Shown piece after piece: positions 35,798 through 44,228 of a stretch of 64,000 nucleotides of DNA. Numbering within the stretch: the first letter of the stretch is position 1; each line of letters starts with the position of its first letter. Made by a program: the position numbers and the translations under genes. The stretch comes from Dyadobacter tibetensis Y620-1. Its GTDB lineage: Bacteria > Bacteroidota > Bacteroidia > Cytophagales > Spirosomataceae. The notes below the pieces were generated by a model, which made no database searches, had not been told where the DNA came from, and saw only the letters and a list, made by a program, of their open reading frames with translations. The DNA lies in contig NZ_AZQN01000009.1 in assembly GCF_000566685.1 (NCBI RefSeq), positions 124,001 to 188,000 of the forward strand, given 5' to 3'.

Positions 35798-35836
35798 AAA
35801 AAAAGAGGCTGTCTCAATACGACAGCCTCTTTTTTT
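35798..35836. terminator. bidirectional terminator between the small secreted protein and DUF5690 genes
   Basis: Perfect 16-bp arms with a GAGGCTGTC core, flanked by seven As and seven Ts, 7-base loop. It overlaps the last bases of the DUF5690 stop codon. Confidence 0.9.
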
Positions 35837-37148
35837 ATGCCTGATTAAAAACCAACCTTTCCCGTTTTCGTCTTATTCTATGCCATTCTAAATAGGAATT
35901 GGCCAAAATTAACAACGCCAACCCGCCCCCAGCCTGTAGATAAGCGAATTGCGTAAGTACGGAAACCCAACTTAACTCCTGAAAATAAAATTCCTTAAAT
36001 AAAAGCAATACCCCACTCCCCAGATAACCTAAACTTTCGCATAGATAAATGAAATATCCAGCATTAGCTTTAAGCCTAAACAAGGCGATAAAACGTTCGA
36101 ACACGACGGTTTGAAGTGCGGTATAGGACAAAAAAGCCCCTACCCCTAGAAACAGCATCCAATAGAAGCCATTCATCCAACCGATTTCGAAGAGATAAGT
36201 AGAGAAGCCACAAAGCACCAGACCTACCAACACGATAAGATTACAAAGCCTAAAGCCCAGTAAATTGCTTTTTACAAACACCAAAAGCCCGATGATCACA
36301 AATACCACTAATCCACAAATCAACTCAGTTTGAGCCAATACTCCATTTTCCCAGGCTGCATCGATTTCATTCCAAATTTCCACTGTAAAGTTATCTCTGA
36401 AATCCCTAACAACTACAAGGCCGGAATAACAAAGCACCAAACACATAATTGGAAATCCAAACCGGGCTAATACTTCATATTTATCCCTTCTGGTCATGGG
36501 CACACGCAGAGTCCTCGATTTTATATCCGCTTCGGTAGGCCCCGGGATCATTCCTAGCATCCATACAAAAATTAAAAACATAGGAAGGAAGATAGAACCC
36601 ATCAGAAAGGGCATCCAAAACTCTCCTACCTCCGGGAAATAATCGGACAAATTCAGATAAATTGTTTTTAAAATTCCCGAGGCTACTACCACACTTACGC
36701 TTAGCCCCATCGCCAGCAACTCGGTAAGCCGCCGACCTTCGACAAAACTAAATACAACGCCATAGACCATTCCCAGGGGCAGTCCGTTTACAAAAAGAAA
36801 GATGAAATTATAAGGGAAAGGATTGACTGCAAACAATAATAATGCGAGATGGGCCAGCAAAATTAATCCTATAATGAGCGCCAGACGATGTCCTTTTTTT
36901 AGTTCTGAAATGACTTTGATCCCAATAAACTTGGAAAGGGTATAACCGGCTAGCTGGGAAATAATTAAGATAGCCTTATATCCGACACCCCATAATGTCA
37001 ATCCCTCATAAACTCCGGCACTAAAGGGCTTCCTGAACGAATACATACAAAAATAGACACCAAAAGAAGAAAATATCGTCCAGAGTATCAATAACCCCTT
37101 AGAATTTTCCAACCCAGATTTCAATTTACCAATCAATATTGTATACAT
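35835..37148 (-). CDS. DUF5690 family MFS-like permease, candidate phosphonate transporter
   Basis: A 437-residue protein with about twelve membrane helices and an MFS-like N-terminus (WTIFSSFGVYFCMYSFRKPFSAGVYEG) reminiscent of the organophosphate:phosphate antiporter (GlpT/UhpT) group, where a Y-x-x-R-x-x-F motif is also found after helix 1. It matches what I know of DUF5690, a Bacteroidota family often encoded beside phosphonate-catabolism genes. It is the last gene of the minus-strand locus, 98 bases after the PLP enzyme. A role in uptake of an aminophosphonate across the inner membrane is inferred from fold and context, not demonstrated. Confidence 0.75.
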   Translation of the reverse strand: MYTILIGKLKSGLENSKGLLILWTIFSSFGVYFCMYSFRKPFSAGVYEGLTLWGVGYKAILIISQLAGYTLSKFIGIKVISELKKGHRLALIIGLILLAHLALLLFAVNPFPYNFIFLFVNGLPLGMVYGVVFSFVEGRRLTELLAMGLSVSVVVASGILKTIYLNLSDYFPEVGEFWMPFLMGSIFLPMFLIFVWMLGMIPGPTEADIKSRTLRVPMTRRDKYEVLARFGFPIMCLVLCYSGLVVVRDFRDNFTVEIWNEIDAAWENGVLAQTELICGLVVFVIIGLLVFVKSNLLGFRLCNLIVLVGLVLCGFSTYLFEIGWMNGFYWMLFLGVGAFLSYTALQTVVFERFIALFRLKANAGYFIYLCESLGYLGSGVLLLFKEFYFQELSWVSVLTQFAYLQAGGGLALLILANSYLEWHRIRRKRERLVFNQA

Positions 37149-37246
37149 AAGTCTACCGGAAAAGACTAAAAAAAGCGTAGTTAAACATATTTATCTTCCT
37201 CCTAAAAGCTCAATTGGCCCTGCTGCGACACCCCATTCATTTTGAG

Positions 37247-38614
37247 CTAGGACTGGTCGTCGCGCACACGACCAACCATCTCTAATGCCTCTTCCAAAAT
37301 ATTCAAGGCCCTTTGCAGTTCACTTCTGCTGATATTTAAAGGTGGGGCTAATTGAATGACGTTCCCTTGCGATATTTTAAAACTCAAACCATTTGCCAAG
37401 CAGCCGTACATAATTGCCTCGGCCTCCATAATTGCTTTCTCTTTAGTAGCCGCGTCCAAAACCAGTTCAACCCCCCAGAGCAGGCCTATTCCACGAATAT
37501 CCCCAATAATCGGATATTTTTCCTTTAGGGCTAACAGAGCAGTTCGTACAAATTTCTCGTCTGCCTGCACTTTGACCAACAAATCTTCATGCTGCAAAAC
37601 CTCCAGCATAGCCAAAGCCGCCACCGCACCCAATGGGCTCTTTTCATGAGTAAAATGTCCCAAAGAAACATTGGCAGCCACATTATACTGCTCTCTCGCT
37701 ATGATACCCGCCATAGGCATGATGCCCGCACCCAGCCCCTTTCCCAAGCAAAGAATATCGGGCTCGATGTCAAAATGTTCAAAAGCAAACATTTTCCCCG
37801 TCCTTCCAAAGGCAATAGGAATTTCATCGAGTATTAACAAGACATCATGTTTGTCACAAATTTCCCGAATTCGTTTCCAATAGGCATTCGATGCGATCTG
37901 AACATCGGTATTCCGTATGGTCTCAATGAGAAATGCCCCAATATCTCCCTCTTTTTCAATTACATATTCCAGATAATCGGCATAAGGCAGATCCCCGTTT
38001 TCGGCAGATTGAAAGGGTCCTCGATAGGTAGTTGGAGGAGGTATGCGCTCTACCCCCGGCATCATCGGCCCCAGATTCTTTCTGAAGTCCAGTTCCCCAC
38101 CTGCGGCTATAGCATCCATCGATGCACCATGAAAGGAGTCCCAAACTGATACCACTTTGTGCTTCCCCGTAACAACACGAGCCAACTTTAATGCCATACT
38201 GATAGCCGAAGTCCCGCCCGGAGCAAATAATACTCTATTAAGATCCCCCGGTGTTAGCTCCGATAGTTTTTTGGCAAGATTAATGGCAGGCTCATTGGTG
38301 TAGCGCCGTGGAGAAAATGGTAATACATCCATCTGCTGTTTTACTTTTTCCAACACATAAGGATGGCGATACCCTATCTGATGCACATTATTTCCATGGA
38401 AATCCATATAACGCCTACCTTGCATATCGGTGATATAGATTCCTTCACAGGACTGTAATACGTCTAGGCAAGGGGTCGATAATGACTGATGCAAGAAAGA
38501 AGCTGCATCTTCTTTGAGCAAAGACAGAGTCTGAGCGTCATCTATCACGGCATACCACTGCGTTCGAGCCGAGGAAATATTAACATCACCTTCTGTTCTA
38601 TTCTGTTCTGACAT
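37247..38614 (-). CDS. pbfA: class-III aminotransferase-fold PLP enzyme, probable PbfA-type hydroxy-AEP ammonia-lyase
   Basis: A 455-residue protein of PLP fold type I, class III: NNVHQIGYRHPYVLEKV, FAPGGTSAISMALKLAR (cofactor phosphate binding), VSVWDSFHGASMDA, LLILDEIPIAFGRTGK, and the PLP lysine Lys292 in LGKGLGAGIMP. Neighbouring phosphonate genes point to the PbfA subgroup, which eliminates ammonia from (R)-1-hydroxy-2-aminoethylphosphonate to give phosphonoacetaldehyde, rather than a true transaminase such as PhnW (class V). The alternative is an aminotransferase acting on 2-aminoethylphosphonate or another omega-amine. Class assignment firm; exact reaction inferred from context. Confidence 0.7.
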   Translation of the reverse strand: MSEQNRTEGDVNISSARTQWYAVIDDAQTLSLLKEDAASFLHQSLSTPCLDVLQSCEGIYITDMQGRRYMDFHGNNVHQIGYRHPYVLEKVKQQMDVLPFSPRRYTNEPAINLAKKLSELTPGDLNRVLFAPGGTSAISMALKLARVVTGKHKVVSVWDSFHGASMDAIAAGGELDFRKNLGPMMPGVERIPPPTTYRGPFQSAENGDLPYADYLEYVIEKEGDIGAFLIETIRNTDVQIASNAYWKRIREICDKHDVLLILDEIPIAFGRTGKMFAFEHFDIEPDILCLGKGLGAGIMPMAGIIAREQYNVAANVSLGHFTHEKSPLGAVAALAMLEVLQHEDLLVKVQADEKFVRTALLALKEKYPIIGDIRGIGLLWGVELVLDAATKEKAIMEAEAIMYGCLANGLSFKISQGNVIQLAPPLNISRSELQRALNILEEALEMVGRVRDDQS

Positions 38615-38770
38615 ATTATTATTGGATTAAACGCCCTTTTATCGACCTTCAAATACGCAAAACAACCTATCAATACCAAAATTCGGCACCTGGAATCAAA
38701 TCCCCTACTGCCCCTAATGAGGTAAACCACTGCCATCACCCTCCTGCAGAGTAGCGGCCATAGCTATTGG

Positions 38771-39718
38771 CTAGTCTCCTATGGAAATATATTCTGGCTC
38801 AGGATGACCTTTAAATGCTGCCTTAACAGGGCGTCCGATCCAAGCATACGGCTGGGCAATACCCAGTACATAGGCGATGGTAGCCGCCAGGTCGTATGTA
38901 TTGACCTGCTGCTTTATCTCATAGGCAGGTTTCACACCGGGCCCCGAGAATATCATGGCAATCTCGGCCTCTTCAGGCGTGGCACCACCATGTCCTTTAC
39001 CCTTACCTCCATGATCTGCCGTGATAAGAACCAAGGTTTTATCCTGAAGACCAGCCTTTTGAATCCCTTGAAGCACCAAACCAATAAGTGAATCAGCCTT
39101 GGTAACGGATTCATAATAAGGCAAGGTACCATGCCCGTCGTGATGTCCCGCATGATCGACATGATCGAGGTGTAAAAAACCAAGCACTGGTTTTTTCTCC
39201 ATAAAATATCTAACAAAATCTACTGCCGACGAATCTTCTGTAGAGAAATGTCGATCGTAATTCAGAGCATTTTTCTGAAACAGCCTCCCAAAACCTCTCC
39301 AATGATAAACTGTCCCAATTTCTGCATCTGGCCGAGCCCGGTGCAGCACACTGAATATAGTAGGAAAACGTCCGTCCTTTTCGGCTACCACCGGGGGCAA
39401 AGTATGCTTATCAATTTCCCAGTCGTTATTAATGATTCCATGCTGCTCCGGGCCTGCGCCCATAATCATCGAACCCCAGTTTTGACTACTTGCTGTGGTA
39501 AGTACCGTCCTCACCTGCCATTTCACACTGCCCTGATGCAATAGCGTATCCATAACTGGAGTATGCGCCTTCCGGATACCGTCGGGGCTCATCCCGTCCA
39601 CCCCAATCACTACGACATGTTCTATTTGGTTAACTAACGTTTCCCTCTGGGCATTGGCAGCAGAACAAAAGACGGCCAATCCTGCTGATAATACGGATTT
39701 AAGAATAAGATCATTCAT
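38771..39718 (-). CDS. exported alkaline-phosphatase-superfamily hydrolase
   Basis: A 315-residue protein with a signal peptide ending near ANAQR. Nucleotide-pyrophosphatase/phosphodiesterase-like fold: metal Asp41 in VVIGVDGMSPDG, a nucleophile segment LTTASSQNWGSMIMGAGPEQHG where Ser77 takes the place usually held by Thr, LDHVDHAGHHDG, and ADHGGKGKGHGG for the second metal site. It lies in the phosphonate locus and is predicted periplasmic. It could free an aminophosphonate from an ester or lipid, or be related to phosphonoacetate hydrolase (PhnA) of the same superfamily. The substrate is not defined by sequence. Confidence 0.8.
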   Translation of the reverse strand: MNDLILKSVLSAGLAVFCSAANAQRETLVNQIEHVVVIGVDGMSPDGIRKAHTPVMDTLLHQGSVKWQVRTVLTTASSQNWGSMIMGAGPEQHGIINNDWEIDKHTLPPVVAEKDGRFPTIFSVLHRARPDAEIGTVYHWRGFGRLFQKNALNYDRHFSTEDSSAVDFVRYFMEKKPVLGFLHLDHVDHAGHHDGHGTLPYYESVTKADSLIGLVLQGIQKAGLQDKTLVLITADHGGKGKGHGGATPEEAEIAMIFSGPGVKPAYEIKQQVNTYDLAATIAYVLGIAQPYAWIGRPVKAAFKGHPEPEYISIGD

Positions 39719-39807
39719 ACTTATAAGGATTTAGGAATATATTGATTTTAGATAGCCTATACTGCTTTATGCAAATGCAAAAAACAGTGAAGAAAAATAT
39801 CGGTATA

Positions 39808-40947
39808 CTATATACGACCCTGAACATAATGGCCATTGACCACTTCTTCACAAAGTCCAAATGACAAAGTCATTCCAGCCCCTCCCAAACCATTGATGAT
39901 TGTCACCCCTTGTACAGGGGACATAACGAGTTCGGTGGCGCCGTTCGTCATTTTAGGATATATCCCGTTCCAGGTCTGCGACACCCTCGTCGATTTAAAA
40001 TGGGCAAAACTATTTAAATAGTCCAAAATAAGTCTATTTACAATTTCTCTATCGAAAGGGTCAAAAGTGAGTCCATATTCATGCGAATCTCCTATTGTAA
40101 TTTCGCCTAATCCATTTTGCGAAGCCATCACATGGATTCCCCATTGGATATGTTCAGGATATTGAGCCGCATAACGTTCTTTTAATGCCACTAGGCTGGG
40201 TGCCACTTTAAAGCCTTCATAATGGGTTAGAGACAAGCCTCCACATAGAGAAGGACCAATTTTCCAGTCATTAGGCTGAGACTCGAAGCGTAGCATTTGT
40301 AGTTTACATTTCGTGAGAGGAGCCTCAGCAAACAGCGTCGGATAAAGGGTCTCAAAATCGGCTCCGCTGCAGATATATATTTCATCAGCCGACCAACGCT
40401 TTCCCCCAGCCACAACCGCCGGGTAGTCCACCTGCGTTGCGGCCAGATCCCAATGAAATGTCACCCCATATTTTTCCGCCAAAAACAATGGTATGGTAGC
40501 GATAGCTTCTCGGGGATCGACAATCATCTCATCTGAAGAATACAAGGCCCCTAGCAACCCTTCTGCACGTACCGCCTTAGACTTAGCCAGGGTTTGTTCT
40601 TTAGACAGAATGGAAAGAGATCGAGATTGGCTGCTCGCAGCAACGAATTCTTCCATAACCATCAACTCATCGGCCTGATACGCCATATGTAAACTACCAG
40701 CCTGATGGTGCCATATCCCGGCTTCAACCAAGAGTTCCTTCCAGATGGCCTGGGCCCTTATGGCTCTGCTATAGAGCACACCTTCAGGTTGCCCTATGGG
40801 CCATAACATACCAAAATTCCGAATGGAAGCCCCTACTGCCTTACCAGACCGCTCCAGGACCTGCACCTTATAGCCTCTCTTACATAGGGCATGGGTAGCG
40901 GCTAACCCTACAATGCCCGCACCTATTACTATGGCCGATTTTGTCAT
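39808..40947 (-). CDS. FAD-dependent oxidoreductase, TIGR03364 (phosphonate-locus) type
   Basis: A 379-residue DAO-family flavoprotein: N-terminal FAD motif IVIGAGIVGLAATHALCKRGYKVQVLERS, a GASIRNFGMLWPIGQPEG segment (this NFGM/GQP pattern is what I recall of the TIGR03364 group), and a C-terminal GVTIINGLGGAGMTLSFGLCEEV loop contacting FAD. Characterised relatives in phosphonate clusters oxidise 2-aminoethylphosphonate or its N-methyl form to phosphonoacetaldehyde, releasing the amine and hydrogen peroxide. It overlaps the upstream PhnX-like gene by 4 bases (ATGA), so the two are translationally coupled, matching sequential steps. Substrate preference unknown. Confidence 0.8.
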   Translation of the reverse strand: MTKSAIVIGAGIVGLAATHALCKRGYKVQVLERSGKAVGASIRNFGMLWPIGQPEGVLYSRAIRAQAIWKELLVEAGIWHHQAGSLHMAYQADELMVMEEFVAASSQSRSLSILSKEQTLAKSKAVRAEGLLGALYSSDEMIVDPREAIATIPLFLAEKYGVTFHWDLAATQVDYPAVVAGGKRWSADEIYICSGADFETLYPTLFAEAPLTKCKLQMLRFESQPNDWKIGPSLCGGLSLTHYEGFKVAPSLVALKERYAAQYPEHIQWGIHVMASQNGLGEITIGDSHEYGLTFDPFDREIVNRLILDYLNSFAHFKSTRVSQTWNGIYPKMTNGATELVMSPVQGVTIINGLGGAGMTLSFGLCEEVVNGHYVQGRI

Positions 40948-41639
40948 TGAGATAATTTTTCCACGTTAATTTCCAGAATATCTAATAAGGCAGCCATATT
41001 GTCAATAATATGCGTGGGTTGATAGGGCAGCAAGGCCTCCCTGGTAAAAGCCCCGGTAGTTATCCCAATGGCGTAGGCGCAACCCGCATTCTTGGCTTCG
41101 TTAATATCCACTTCCGTATCCCCCACTTTGGCCACAGCACCGGGAGAACTGATATGCAGACGATGCATTAGCTCGTTGATCATATCGGGATAAGGCCTTC
41201 CATGCGCAACTTCATCACTGGCTATCAGCATATCAATCTTAGATTCCCAGCCCAATCGATTTATTATCACCAGAGCAATATCCCTTGAAAATCCGGTATT
41301 TAAAGCAATTTTTATTCCTGCTCCTCTTAGCGCCGCAAAGGTTTGTTCTACCTCAGGCAATGCCTCTATTTCCTCCGACTCCTGGTAGAACTGAAGCATA
41401 GTCCTGACAAATTCCTCATGAATCTTGGATATAAGATCCTCACTAATCTCACTAACGCCTATCTTCTCCAAGATCATCTTGATGGCCAGAGGCTTCTCAT
41501 AACCCATAATTGGATTAATTTCAGTAAGGGGCACATCATACCCCCTGCTCTTCATGGCTTGCTGAAATGCAAGCCCAACATAATTTTTGTCTTTGACGGT
41601 CGTCCCGGCCATATCAAATACCACAAGCTCTATTTCCAT
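40944..41639 (-). CDS. phosphonatase-like HAD hydrolase (PhnX-related)
   Basis: A 231-residue HAD hydrolase. The nucleophile loop is VVFDMAGTTVKD (Asp9); the cap has IMGYEKPLAIKMIL; the motif 2 region is LNTGFSRD; the acidic motif is KVGDTEVDINEAKNAGC. The DxAGTT motif is the signature of phosphonoacetaldehyde hydrolases. Lys49 in MGYEK aligns with the PhnX lysine (MGLLK) that forms the Schiff base with phosphonoacetaldehyde, so C-P bond cleavage to acetaldehyde and phosphate is plausible. It is shorter than classical PhnX and best placed in the PhnX-like TIGR03351 group. First gene of the coupled pair with the FAD enzyme. Confidence 0.82.
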   Translation of the reverse strand: MEIELVVFDMAGTTVKDKNYVGLAFQQAMKSRGYDVPLTEINPIMGYEKPLAIKMILEKIGVSEISEDLISKIHEEFVRTMLQFYQESEEIEALPEVEQTFAALRGAGIKIALNTGFSRDIALVIINRLGWESKIDMLIASDEVAHGRPYPDMINELMHRLHISSPGAVAKVGDTEVDINEAKNAGCAYAIGITTGAFTREALLPYQPTHIIDNMAALLDILEINVEKLSQ

Positions 41640-41939
41640 CTTTCAATTAGATAATTTTGGTTTTAAAAGACAGACGATCAAGTAAAATGTCCTCCAACTG
41701 GGGAATTATTTAATTTAACAAAATCGCCTTTGCTTACTCCAAGCAAAGGGTAAAGCTAATATCTGAAGATCAACTTAGCAATAGTTTTGTTCAGTAATAC
41801 TTAATCATCCCCTCCCCTCAACGTTGATATCACAAATTAAAACATAAAAAATAGAACTCAAGTTAAGTGAATGTTAATTAATACTAAACATACAAACTAA
41901 ACAGGAAAGCTATCTTCAGCAAATGGCACCCGAACGGAT
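41640..41939. other. intergenic region upstream of the phosphonatase-like gene
   Basis: 300 bases between the XRE-cupin stop and the PhnX-like start. It holds one striking inverted repeat (41727-41749), annotated separately. The rest is AT-rich with no exact -7 motif on the minus strand and no coding frame. Confidence 0.5.
41727..41749. promoter_or_regulatory. perfect inverted repeat, candidate operator of the phosphonate locus
   Basis: CCTTTGCTT and AAGCAAAGG arms (9 bp, exact) separated by ACTCC. It lies about 90 bases upstream of the PhnX-like start and about 190 bases past the regulator gene stop. There is no clean T run after it on the minus strand, so an operator for the adjacent XRE-cupin protein is more likely than a terminator, though a weak terminator is not excluded. 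Confidence 0.4.
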
Positions 41940-42518
41940 TTAAGTCATTTCATTGAAAAAATAGATTACTAACATCAACGCTTCTTCTCCATCAATGCAT
42001 TCCGGATTATGCAGCTCGTTAGCATCGAAGAACATCGAGTCCCCTTCATAAAGAATATGTTTTTCCTTACCAATGGCATATTGGACAGTACCTTGCAGGA
42101 CATATTTGAATTCGTAGGCATTGGTCCTGACCATGGGCCGTTTGGCCCCTTTTTCCAGACGAAGTAACACCACATCGATATGATTGTCTTTAAACTGCTT
42201 GCTAAATATTCTCTGGTAAAAGAATCCTTTTGCATTCTCCTTGGTAAAAGGCTGGTAGGCATCTTTCCTTTTGATGACCACACTTTCTTCAGCGGCATAC
42301 GAAATAATATCCCGAAAAAATTCATTAAGATCGACATCCAGCGCTTTGATCAACCCCAACATCACAGGAAGGGACGGTATAGTCCTACTGTTTTCAATTT
42401 GAGAAACCAGGCTCTTGGTAACCCCAGCTTCAGTTGCAATTTTCTGCAAGGTTACCCCCTTGCCTTTTCTCATTTCCTTTAGCTTATTACTAATTTGAAA
42501 TAGGATGTCGTCCTGCAT
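41940..42518 (-). CDS. XRE-family regulator with C-terminal cupin domain
   Basis: A 192-residue protein. The N-terminal helix-turn-helix (about residues 8-65) reads LKEMRKGKGVTLQKIATEAGVTKSLVSQIENSRTIPSLPVMLGLIKAL. The C-terminal cupin barrel (about 110-190) has RPMVRTNAYEFKYVLQGTVQYAIGKEKHILYEGDSMFFDANELHNPEC. Such proteins bind a small ligand in the cupin and control adjacent catabolic genes. It is transcribed toward the phosphonatase-like/FAD pair with an inverted repeat between, making it the likely local regulator. Divergent from the tandem ABC ATPase gene. Ligand unknown, possibly a phosphonate pathway intermediate. Confidence 0.88.
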   Translation of the reverse strand: MQDDILFQISNKLKEMRKGKGVTLQKIATEAGVTKSLVSQIENSRTIPSLPVMLGLIKALDVDLNEFFRDIISYAAEESVVIKRKDAYQPFTKENAKGFFYQRIFSKQFKDNHIDVVLLRLEKGAKRPMVRTNAYEFKYVLQGTVQYAIGKEKHILYEGDSMFFDANELHNPECIDGEEALMLVIYFFNEMT

Positions 42519-42701
42519 ATTAAAAGTTATAGGTGTAAAATCAATGACTCGAATAAAATGATTCTGCGGCGTATACTCCTAAAACCCTAGGATCCATCGA
42601 ATCAAGTCAAGCTTACAAAAATAGAAAGTTATCGGTGGTTGTATGAATAAAGCTTAGGATATTTGCTTGATATATTCAATACCGAATCTTTCAATCACTC
42701 T

Positions 42702-44228
42702 ATGGATCCTATTGAGCTTAAAAATATTTCTGTAAGAAAGCATGATACAATAATTTTAGAAGATATAAACTGGACACTTCTTCCCGGTGAACAATGGGCC
42801 ATAACCGGCACTAATGGATCGGGCAAATCTACCTTACTGGAGTGCTTAGCGGGGAAACGGCCTGTATGGAAAGGTATTATTCTTATGGGTAGCAGCAAAC
42901 CACAACCAGGAGAAATTGAGCTTTTGGCCAATGACTATTCCTTTAACCGAATCGTAAATGCCGGCGCAGAATATTACCAACAACGCTTCCATGCCTACGA
43001 AGCAGAAAGGGCTCCGACCGTACGGGCTATACTTACTGATCAGCTTAGACCTATTGGTACAATCGATGAAAAATCAGTCGATTTAGCCCCTACATTGATC
43101 AGCGATCAAACACTGGACGAGGTTAGCGAACTGCTTTCCATTTCTCATTTACTCGACCACCCGTTTGTAACGCTTTCTAATGGAGAAACCCGACGCATGC
43201 TCTTAGCTAAATCCCTGGTAAAAAAGCCCAAAGTACTCCTACTCGACAGCCCATTTGCCGGGCTGGATACCCACAGCAGATCGGTATTGCAGGGTGCATT
43301 GGAACAGCTCGCTCAAAAGGGCACCAGAATCGTACTGGTGACTACTCCCGGAGAAATTCCCGATAGCATGACCCATGTTTTAGAGTTGAATGAGGGTAAA
43401 ATCAGTAATCATTCTTCTCTGACCCAATTCAAGGCCAGGCCCACTCAGCCCTCGTATTTACCACTCCCTACCGCCGAAAGTTTAGCCCAATTCGGGCTTC
43501 CTCAAGCCAACAATTTCGAAGTAGCAATAGATCTTCGGAATACTCGGGTACGATATGGTGACAGTCAGATTTTAAAAGGAATAAACTGGAAAGTAAAAAA
43601 AGGAGAAAAATGGGCACTCTCAGGACCCAATGGTTCTGGAAAATCGACCTTATTGAGCATCATTACAGCCGATAACCCCCAACGATTCGCCAACGACTTC
43701 GATCTTTTCGATCAGAAACGAGGAGGAGCAGGGGCCTCCATCTGGGATATTAAGCAGAAGATAGGGCATATCTCCCCGGAGCTTCATCTTTATTTCCCGC
43801 GCAATACACCAGTCCACAAAACCATAGCTTCAGGATTTTTCGATGCAACTGGTGTTTTTTTCAAAAAACTAAGCCCGGCTCAACTCGATAAGGTTCAGGA
43901 AGTTGCGGATCTGCTCCACGTAGATGATTTATTGGAAAGGGATTTCTCAGCTCTGTCTAAGGGCCAACAGAGACTTGTTTTACTAGCTCGGGCCTTGGTG
44001 AAGAATCCTCCATTACTCATATTAGATGAACCATGCCAGGGGTTGGACCAACAAGCTACAGAAAATTTCAAGGCCATTGTTGACGCTATTTGCAATAATC
44101 AGGAGCGCACCTTAATCTATGTTTCTCACTATCCCTCAGAGATACCTTCCTGCGTTTCGCATTTTATCAGATTAGACCAGGGAAGCATCCTATCTATGGA
44201 AAGTACCCAGCCCAATACCCAAGGATAA
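42702..44228 (+). CDS. tandem ABC ATPase, ModF-like
   Basis: About 508 residues, two ABC domains, no membrane segment. Domain 1 has Walker A GTNGSGKST, signature LSNGETRR and Walker B LLLDSPFAGLD, in which the catalytic glutamate is replaced by serine. Domain 2 has GPNGSGKST, LSKGQQRL and LILDEPCQGLD with the glutamate intact. The layout resembles ModF/PhrA-type proteins, associated with molybdate transport in E. coli, but no permease or molybdenum gene is adjacent, so function is open. The frame opens at TTG 42663; the ATG at 42702 (MDPIELKNISVRK) is the usual kind of start. Confidence 0.82.
   Translation: MDPIELKNISVRKHDTIILEDINWTLLPGEQWAITGTNGSGKSTLLECLAGKRPVWKGIILMGSSKPQPGEIELLANDYSFNRIVNAGAEYYQQRFHAYEAERAPTVRAILTDQLRPIGTIDEKSVDLAPTLISDQTLDEVSELLSISHLLDHPFVTLSNGETRRMLLAKSLVKKPKVLLLDSPFAGLDTHSRSVLQGALEQLAQKGTRIVLVTTPGEIPDSMTHVLELNEGKISNHSSLTQFKARPTQPSYLPLPTAESLAQFGLPQANNFEVAIDLRNTRVRYGDSQILKGINWKVKKGEKWALSGPNGSGKSTLLSIITADNPQRFANDFDLFDQKRGGAGASIWDIKQKIGHISPELHLYFPRNTPVHKTIASGFFDATGVFFKKLSPAQLDKVQEVADLLHVDDLLERDFSALSKGQQRLVLLARALVKNPPLLILDEPCQGLDQQATENFKAIVDAICNNQERTLIYVSHYPSEIPSCVSHFIRLDQGSILSMESTQPNTQG

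Follow-up and report, generated by a model that had tools for sequence, protein, structure and literature searches.

A probable aminophosphonate catabolic operon of Dyadobacter tibetensis with DUF5690 as its candidate importer

Introduction

Published systems resembling the locus studied here degrade aminophosphonates by way of phosphonoacetaldehyde. According to Zangelmi et al. 2023 (PMC10590968), the FAD enzymes PbfB, PbfC and PbfD convert N-methyl-2-aminoethylphosphonate (N-methyl-AEP) to phosphonoacetaldehyde, PbfD2 also acts on 2-aminoethylphosphonate (AEP), and clusters with phnX but without phnW are already described, for example in M. fucicola; the same study reports PbfD in the FCB group and has TIGR03364 named for PbfD1 of A. 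baumannii. Here we analyse a 64,000-nucleotide stretch of Dyadobacter tibetensis Y620-1 (contig NZ_AZQN01000009.1, positions 124,001 to 188,000; hereafter the window), in which six adjacent genes encode an XRE-cupin regulator, a phosphonatase-like HAD hydrolase, an FAD oxidase, an exported hydrolase of the alkaline phosphatase (AP) superfamily, a class-III PLP enzyme and a DUF5690 membrane protein. It is fairly probable, in our judgement, that the locus is a catabolic operon for AEP-type phosphonates with DUF5690 as importer and its own secreted hydrolase.

The published systems share different parts of this arrangement. The PbfD2+PhnX clusters (PMC10590968) likewise obtain phosphate from AEP or N-methyl-AEP through an FAD oxidase and a phosphonatase without PhnW, whereas the window adds PbfA, an exported hydrolase of the nucleotide pyrophosphatase/phosphodiesterase (NPP) type, DUF5690 and XRE-cupin, and its oxidase is placed at the level of TIGR03364. 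In the PbfA-containing phnWX clusters (PMC8154272), PbfA also supplies phosphonoacetaldehyde to a phosphonatase, although the Dyadobacter genome differs in lacking PhnW. AepP, a proven 2AEP permease (PMC8316502), is like DUF5690 a single permease of the major facilitator superfamily (MFS) type encoded beside aminophosphonate catabolic genes, but AepP is GlpT-related by sequence, whereas no sequence match clearly ties DUF5690 to OPA-like MFS proteins. The PUS loci of Flavobacterium (PMC8115612) resemble the window in combining an exported phosphoesterase with enzymes for phosphonates and a carrier of organophosphorus compounds in the inner membrane. SusC and SusD genes lie within 10 kb of DUF5690 in 29 and 30 of the 80 loci described below, whereas window positions 28000-50000 hold no SusC-sized open reading frame (ORF) and thus no SusC/SusD pair, the mark of a PUS.

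An earlier note on the window had proposed an unusual complete pathway leading from hydroxylated or N-methylated AEP through phosphonoacetaldehyde to acetaldehyde and phosphate. The route itself is supported here by profiles, conserved residues and gene neighbourhoods. It is not new, however, because the same chemistry is found in PMC10590968 and PMC8154272, the former having presented an equivalent, PhnW-free pathway in 2023; moreover, DUF5690/TIGR03364 clusters recur across Bacteroidota. With the pathway chemistry already published, the new part of the locus is DUF5690, of which a full-text search found no mention in the set of papers covered.

DUF5690 stays constant beside changing phosphonate enzymes

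A scan of species genomes yielded at least 595 DUF5690 stretches, and the 80 nearest to the window were analysed; since the nearest were kept, this set is biased to relatives. Its protein families (f numbers; loci carry L numbers) were recognised by profiles built from ORF clusters rather than by curated models. The PbfA profile excluded the class-III sequences L043:3936-5339 and L061:14147-15463, and a 150-bit floor for PhnX-like proteins kept out a further set scoring about 100 bits (L140, L146, L148 and L152). In 71 of the 80 loci, DUF5690 has one or more core phosphonate genes within 10 kb, namely PbfD in 47, PhnX-like in 42, PbfA in 18, PhnW in 17, PhnY in 15 and PhnA in 14; AP-superfamily hydrolases (38 loci) and XRE-cupin proteins (36) are found within the same distance. 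PbfD and PhnW are nearly exclusive of one another, sharing a single locus (p 6e-7), and PhnX-like proteins never occur together with PhnY+PhnA, which are found in 14 loci (p 6e-6), kinship being ignored in both tests. DUF5690 is therefore constant while phosphonoacetaldehyde is made by PbfD, PhnW or PbfA and removed by PhnX-like enzymes or PhnY+PhnA, and this constancy, together with its fold, suggests a role in transport.

The DUF5690 protein of the window far exceeds the Pfam gathering score of PF18943 (25), and its predicted model (pLDDT 92.1) contains 12 long helices in an MFS fold. The first three Foldseek matches are all to SLC37A4, the glucose-6-phosphate transporter (TM normalised to the query, 0.68, 0.66 and 0.63). 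Two arginines, R39 where the first long helix ends and R248 within the seventh, are conserved in 109/109 sequences; they may be counterparts of the phosphate-binding arginines of GlpT. Homology to the OPA family was also sought by sequence profile and proved weak or none.

The complete order XRE, HAD, FAD, AP, PbfA, DUF5690 is present in six of ten Dyadobacter loci (L079, L080, L083, L085, L108 and L112), with L081, L082 and L084 each one called gene short and L107 laid out differently. The arrangement is thus not rare, and its repetition in six loci implies more than chance. DUF5690 also occurs as a tandem pair in L091 and L094, and outside Bacteroidota in a metagenome-assembled genome labelled Lysobacterales (L126) and, over the cut-off, in the control genome of Caulobacter vibrioides.

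The exported hydrolase and its association with PbfA

The exported hydrolase, whose signal peptide was recognised by eye, passes the gathering score of PF01663 (23). Its predicted model (pLDDT 89.2) finds Xac NPP as the top Foldseek matches, and its sequence matches in the PDB are NPP-like as well. Nine residues (D41, S77, N80, D185, D188, H192, D235, H236 and H243) are invariant in 33/33 relatives, which make up family f10; they are candidates for the two-metal ligands and the nucleophile of an NPP-type site. A structure-based alignment of f10 excluded L067 and L068 because of their length. Assignment as the phosphonoacetate hydrolase PhnA was rejected (TIGR02335, 22.8 bits against a cut-off of 407.55).

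PbfA is encoded near the f10 hydrolase in 31 of the 33 relatives. In 21 it lies inside the same fetched locus at a distance of 0 to 5.9 kb, and in 10 it falls outside the fetched locus, separated from the hydrolase by 48-1378 bases; these gaps were computed by hand on the assumption that contig and record coordinates are equal. No PbfA was seen for L087 and L099, the lowest-scoring members, which are counted among the 33 but were dropped from the 80-locus counts by a 400-bit floor for f10. Given this close association, the exported hydrolase probably releases hydroxy-AEP from glycan or lipid esters. Reported occurrences are (R)-hydroxy-AEP from a polysaccharide of Acanthamoeba and hydroxy-AEP of unspecified stereochemistry from a lipid of Bdellovibrio (PMC8154272), and AP-like enzymes were earlier proposed to act on the phosphonate esters of marine polysaccharides (PMC5649143).

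Alternatively, the protein could scavenge phosphorus as an unspecialised phosphodiesterase and stand in the operon by chance. Its nearest folds are indeed nucleotide pyrophosphatases/phosphodiesterases, and other AP-superfamily families (f9, f16 and f18) adjoin DUF5690 without PbfA. However, a scavenger is not expected to track one lyase as closely as f10 tracks PbfA, and we regard this explanation as unlikely, though it is the strongest of the competing ones, and prefer a hydrolase that acts on hydroxy-AEP conjugates.

The family also includes very long members, L067:6886-9351 (821 aa) and L068:1039-3495 (818 aa). CHB_HEX_C and PA14 domains are present in the two longer homologues examined, and the L067 protein combines them with two AP-type stretches.

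Distribution in Bacteroidota and direction of transport

To place the cluster in the phylum, 296 Bacteroidota genomes were surveyed, with statistics that treat related genomes as independent. DUF5690 is present in 29 genomes, TIGR03364 (at E 1e-40) in 23, 22 of them over the cut-off, TIGR03351 (at E 1e-35) in 21, PbfA over the cut-off in 12 and PhnW over the cut-off in 7. As many as 23 of the 26 genomes having TIGR03364 or PhnW also carry DUF5690 (Fisher p 1e-25, kinship ignored). DUF5690 and TIGR03364 occur together in 21 genomes; the two lie within 10 kb of each other in 17 of these and within 500 bases in 11.

The remaining three of the 26 each have an MFS permease near their phosphonate genes, adjoining the FAD gene in genomes G215 and G258 and about 5 kb from PhnW in G179. 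The best NCBIfam match of the G215 permease is the PgtP-type TIGR00881 (170.1 bits, cut-off 407.75), followed by GlpT (110.9); being under the cut-off, it is only distantly OPA-like.

These permeases bear on the possibility that DUF5690 exports a product, either phosphate or a toxic intermediate, while the substrate enters through another carrier. The direction of transport is unreadable from the DUF5690 sequence or model, and the SLC37/OPA fold relatives exchange phosphate. Export seems improbable nevertheless, because the three phosphonate genomes without DUF5690 have distantly PgtP/GlpT-like permeases in its stead, the operon holds no other inner-membrane carrier, and the GlpT-related AepP imports AEP (PMC8316502). 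Import of the aminophosphonate by DUF5690 is therefore the reading that we retain.

Candidate enzymes for making and cleaving phosphonoacetaldehyde

The PLP enzyme exceeds the cut-off (525) of NF049939, the equivalog model for PbfA, by about 200 bits and is the sole match over it in the genome, so that placement in a non-phosphonate aminotransferase clade, a possibility raised in the earlier note, is not indicated. That it is instead an AEP transaminase replacing PhnW is very improbable: its class-III aminotransferase fold, a slightly higher and top NCBIfam score for the vaguely named, generic aminotransferase model NF004755 (773.5 bits, cut-off 467) and the absence of PhnW from the genome would fit, but the margin over the PbfA cut-off, the coexistence of PbfA with PhnW in 3 of the 80 loci and the ability of an FAD oxidase to take the role of PhnW (PMC10590968) argue for the hydroxy-AEP lyase PbfA. 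The FAD oxidase clears the TIGR03364 cut-off of 285.1.

The HAD protein is the least straightforward of the six. NCBIfam and Pfam confirm the other five labels of the earlier note, whereas the strict TIGR03351 assignment fails (196.9 against 218.9 bits), as does the PhnX model TIGR01422 (120.9 against 220 bits), and both scores count against a phosphonatase. The TIGR03351 cut-off is also missed by 14 of the 21 Bacteroidota matches to that model. The protein aligns to the phosphonoacetaldehyde hydrolase 1rql over D9, K49 (opposite K53) and the arginine of GRPYP, R148, all three invariant in 61/61 relatives; we take them to be the nucleophilic aspartate, the Schiff-base lysine and the substrate-binding arginine of a phosphonatase. 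The exchange of PhnX-like proteins with PhnY+PhnA supports the view that the PhnX-like enzyme acts on phosphonoacetaldehyde. From these residues and this exchange, we infer that the HAD protein cleaves phosphonoacetaldehyde.

Several of the other DUF5690 loci contain variations. L043:3936-5339 is a second class-III PLP enzyme, adjoining a PbfD gene, and is not PbfA (252.2 bits, cut-off 525). An HD-domain protein at the cut-off of the phosphonate oxygenase model TIGR03276 (L054:5542-6123; 215.4 against 214.6 bits) belongs to an ORF cluster that recurs near DUF5690 in 8 further loci, and DUF5690 clusters with such a protein may have an oxidative side branch. PbfA stands alongside PhnY and PhnA in the Bacteroidota loci L103, L067 and L068, the L068 PhnY being slightly under its cut-off (632.6 against 635.65) and the L103 assignment coming from purpose-built, non-curated profiles; PMC12366243 states the pbfA-phnY-phnA combination to be confined to Proteobacteria.

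Regulation

Upstream of the HAD gene lies a 21-base inverted-repeat element, GTTTAGTATTAATTAACATTC, which has a single match in the 64 kb when 3 mismatches are allowed. It recurs with at most 2 mismatches in 9/9 Dyadobacter loci scanned (L107 left out), although any chance figure is circular because the pattern was derived from those same sequences. Our guess is that the XRE-cupin protein binds this element. Among the papers covered by the literature search, none brought phosphonate, cupin and the XRE family together.

In other loci, the motif TATTTGTAAA has 48 matches in 21.7 kb upstream of DUF5690, SusC, TonB, PhnX-like and XRE-cupin genes, compared with 5 in the 50.0 kb that precede other genes, an enrichment inflated by the choice of the motif from those very upstream regions. 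It is present, often paired, in 24 of the 49 loci having an XRE-cupin gene, including L037, L130, L131 and L147, and is a possible operator there. It was not found in the gaps of the window, where scores stay within shuffled values. A Bacteroidota promoter consensus gave one match in the 64 kb, at 2345, which is chance level.

Locus layout and genome context

All six ORFs are on the minus strand (Table 1), in agreement with the collinearity first noted. HAD and FAD share 4 bases, and the remaining gaps are 300, 89, 156 and 98 bases.

Table 1. Features of the DUF5690 locus (window positions)
Feature	Position	Strand	Evidence
XRE-cupin transcriptional regulator	41940..42518	-	HTH_3 47.8 bits and Cupin_2 43 bits
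Candidate operator/promoter element GTTTAGTATTAATTAACATTC	41869..41889	-	230 bases upstream of HAD start
Phosphonatase-like (PhnX-like) HAD hydrolase	40944..41639	-	TIGR03351 196.9 bits; aligns to 1rql
PbfD-type FAD amine oxidase	39808..40947	-	TIGR03364 418.6 bits
Exported NPP-like AP-superfamily hydrolase, f10, short 315-aa form	38771..39718	-	PF01663 88.4 bits
PbfA, class-III PLP enzyme	37247..38614	-	NF049939 728.8 bits
DUF5690 membrane protein with MFS fold, candidate for aminophosphonate import	35835..37148	-	PF18943 457.8 bits

The absence of PhnW and C-P lyase, first noted for the locus, extends to the whole 5.3 Mb assembly, in which the top PhnW score is 45.2 bits (cut-off 400.8) and PhnJ has no match; neither PhnW nor C-P lyase therefore backs the cluster. 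PEP mutase has no match in the assembly either, and synthesis by that enzyme was not seen. No ABC importer is among the six genes, and no genome-wide search for ABC importers was made. The divergent neighbour at 42663-44228 (+) encodes a double-ATPase ABC protein, ModF-like at 361.3 bits (cut-off 459), and is probably not part of the operon. Scans of the window for tRNA genes and Rfam families found nothing.

Discussion

We propose the following pathway. The exported NPP-like hydrolase would split lipid or glycan esters and so set free their aminophosphonate head groups, chiefly (R)-1-hydroxy-AEP. Judging from its context, fold and conserved arginines, the DUF5690 permease would carry the free aminophosphonate over the inner membrane, perhaps with phosphate moving the other way. 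By the published chemistry of their families, PbfA would act on (R)-hydroxy-AEP by eliminating ammonia, and oxidative deamination of N-methyl-AEP and/or AEP would fall to the PbfD-type oxidase, both reactions giving phosphonoacetaldehyde, which the phosphonatase-like HAD protein would split into acetaldehyde and phosphate. Control of the operon probably lies with the XRE-cupin protein as sensor of the substrate.

Several observations weigh against this proposal. For DUF5690, unrelated MFS families rank close behind SLC37A4 in the Foldseek list; profile similarity to OPA-like MFS proteins is weak, at 0.3% with 2 sequences and 26-30% with 16 sequences which in turn fall short of the TIGR00881 cut-off; and the DUF5690 profile has no match among PDB sequences up to E 10. 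Nine of 30 PbfA loci lack a nearby f10 hydrolase. No core phosphonate gene lies near DUF5690 in 9 of the 80 loci, where contig ends shorten six (L094, L121, L127, L129, L135 and L158) and the flanks of L120, L126 and L136 are complete; a neighbour in L120 scores 311.5 bits for TIGR03366, below the cut-off of 328.1, and a PbfA search in the genomes of six of the nine found it in one (L158) and not in the other five. In the Bacteroidota survey, 6 of the 29 DUF5690 genomes are devoid of TIGR03364, PhnW, TIGR03351 and PbfA alike, and the neighbours of DUF5690 in three of them (L040, L056 and L058) show nothing phosphonate-like. The family may therefore include other substrates. A genome without the four markers also has a PhoR/PhoB-like two-component pair, below cut-offs, near DUF5690 (L045:4756-7153).

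The broader view, that DUF5690 is a new aminophosphonate importer family and the usual inner-membrane entry of AEP-type phosphonates in Bacteroidota, with the exported f10 hydrolase devoted to freeing (R)-hydroxy-AEP from lipids or glycans and the whole under XRE-cupin control, has in our estimate an even chance of being correct. If so, DUF5690 would gain a specific, testable substrate class, and its gene would mark aminophosphonate uptake in this phylum, in which plant-associated members reportedly lack common organic-phosphorus transporters (PMC8115612); hydroxy-AEP would come from esters that a secreted enzyme is dedicated to opening.

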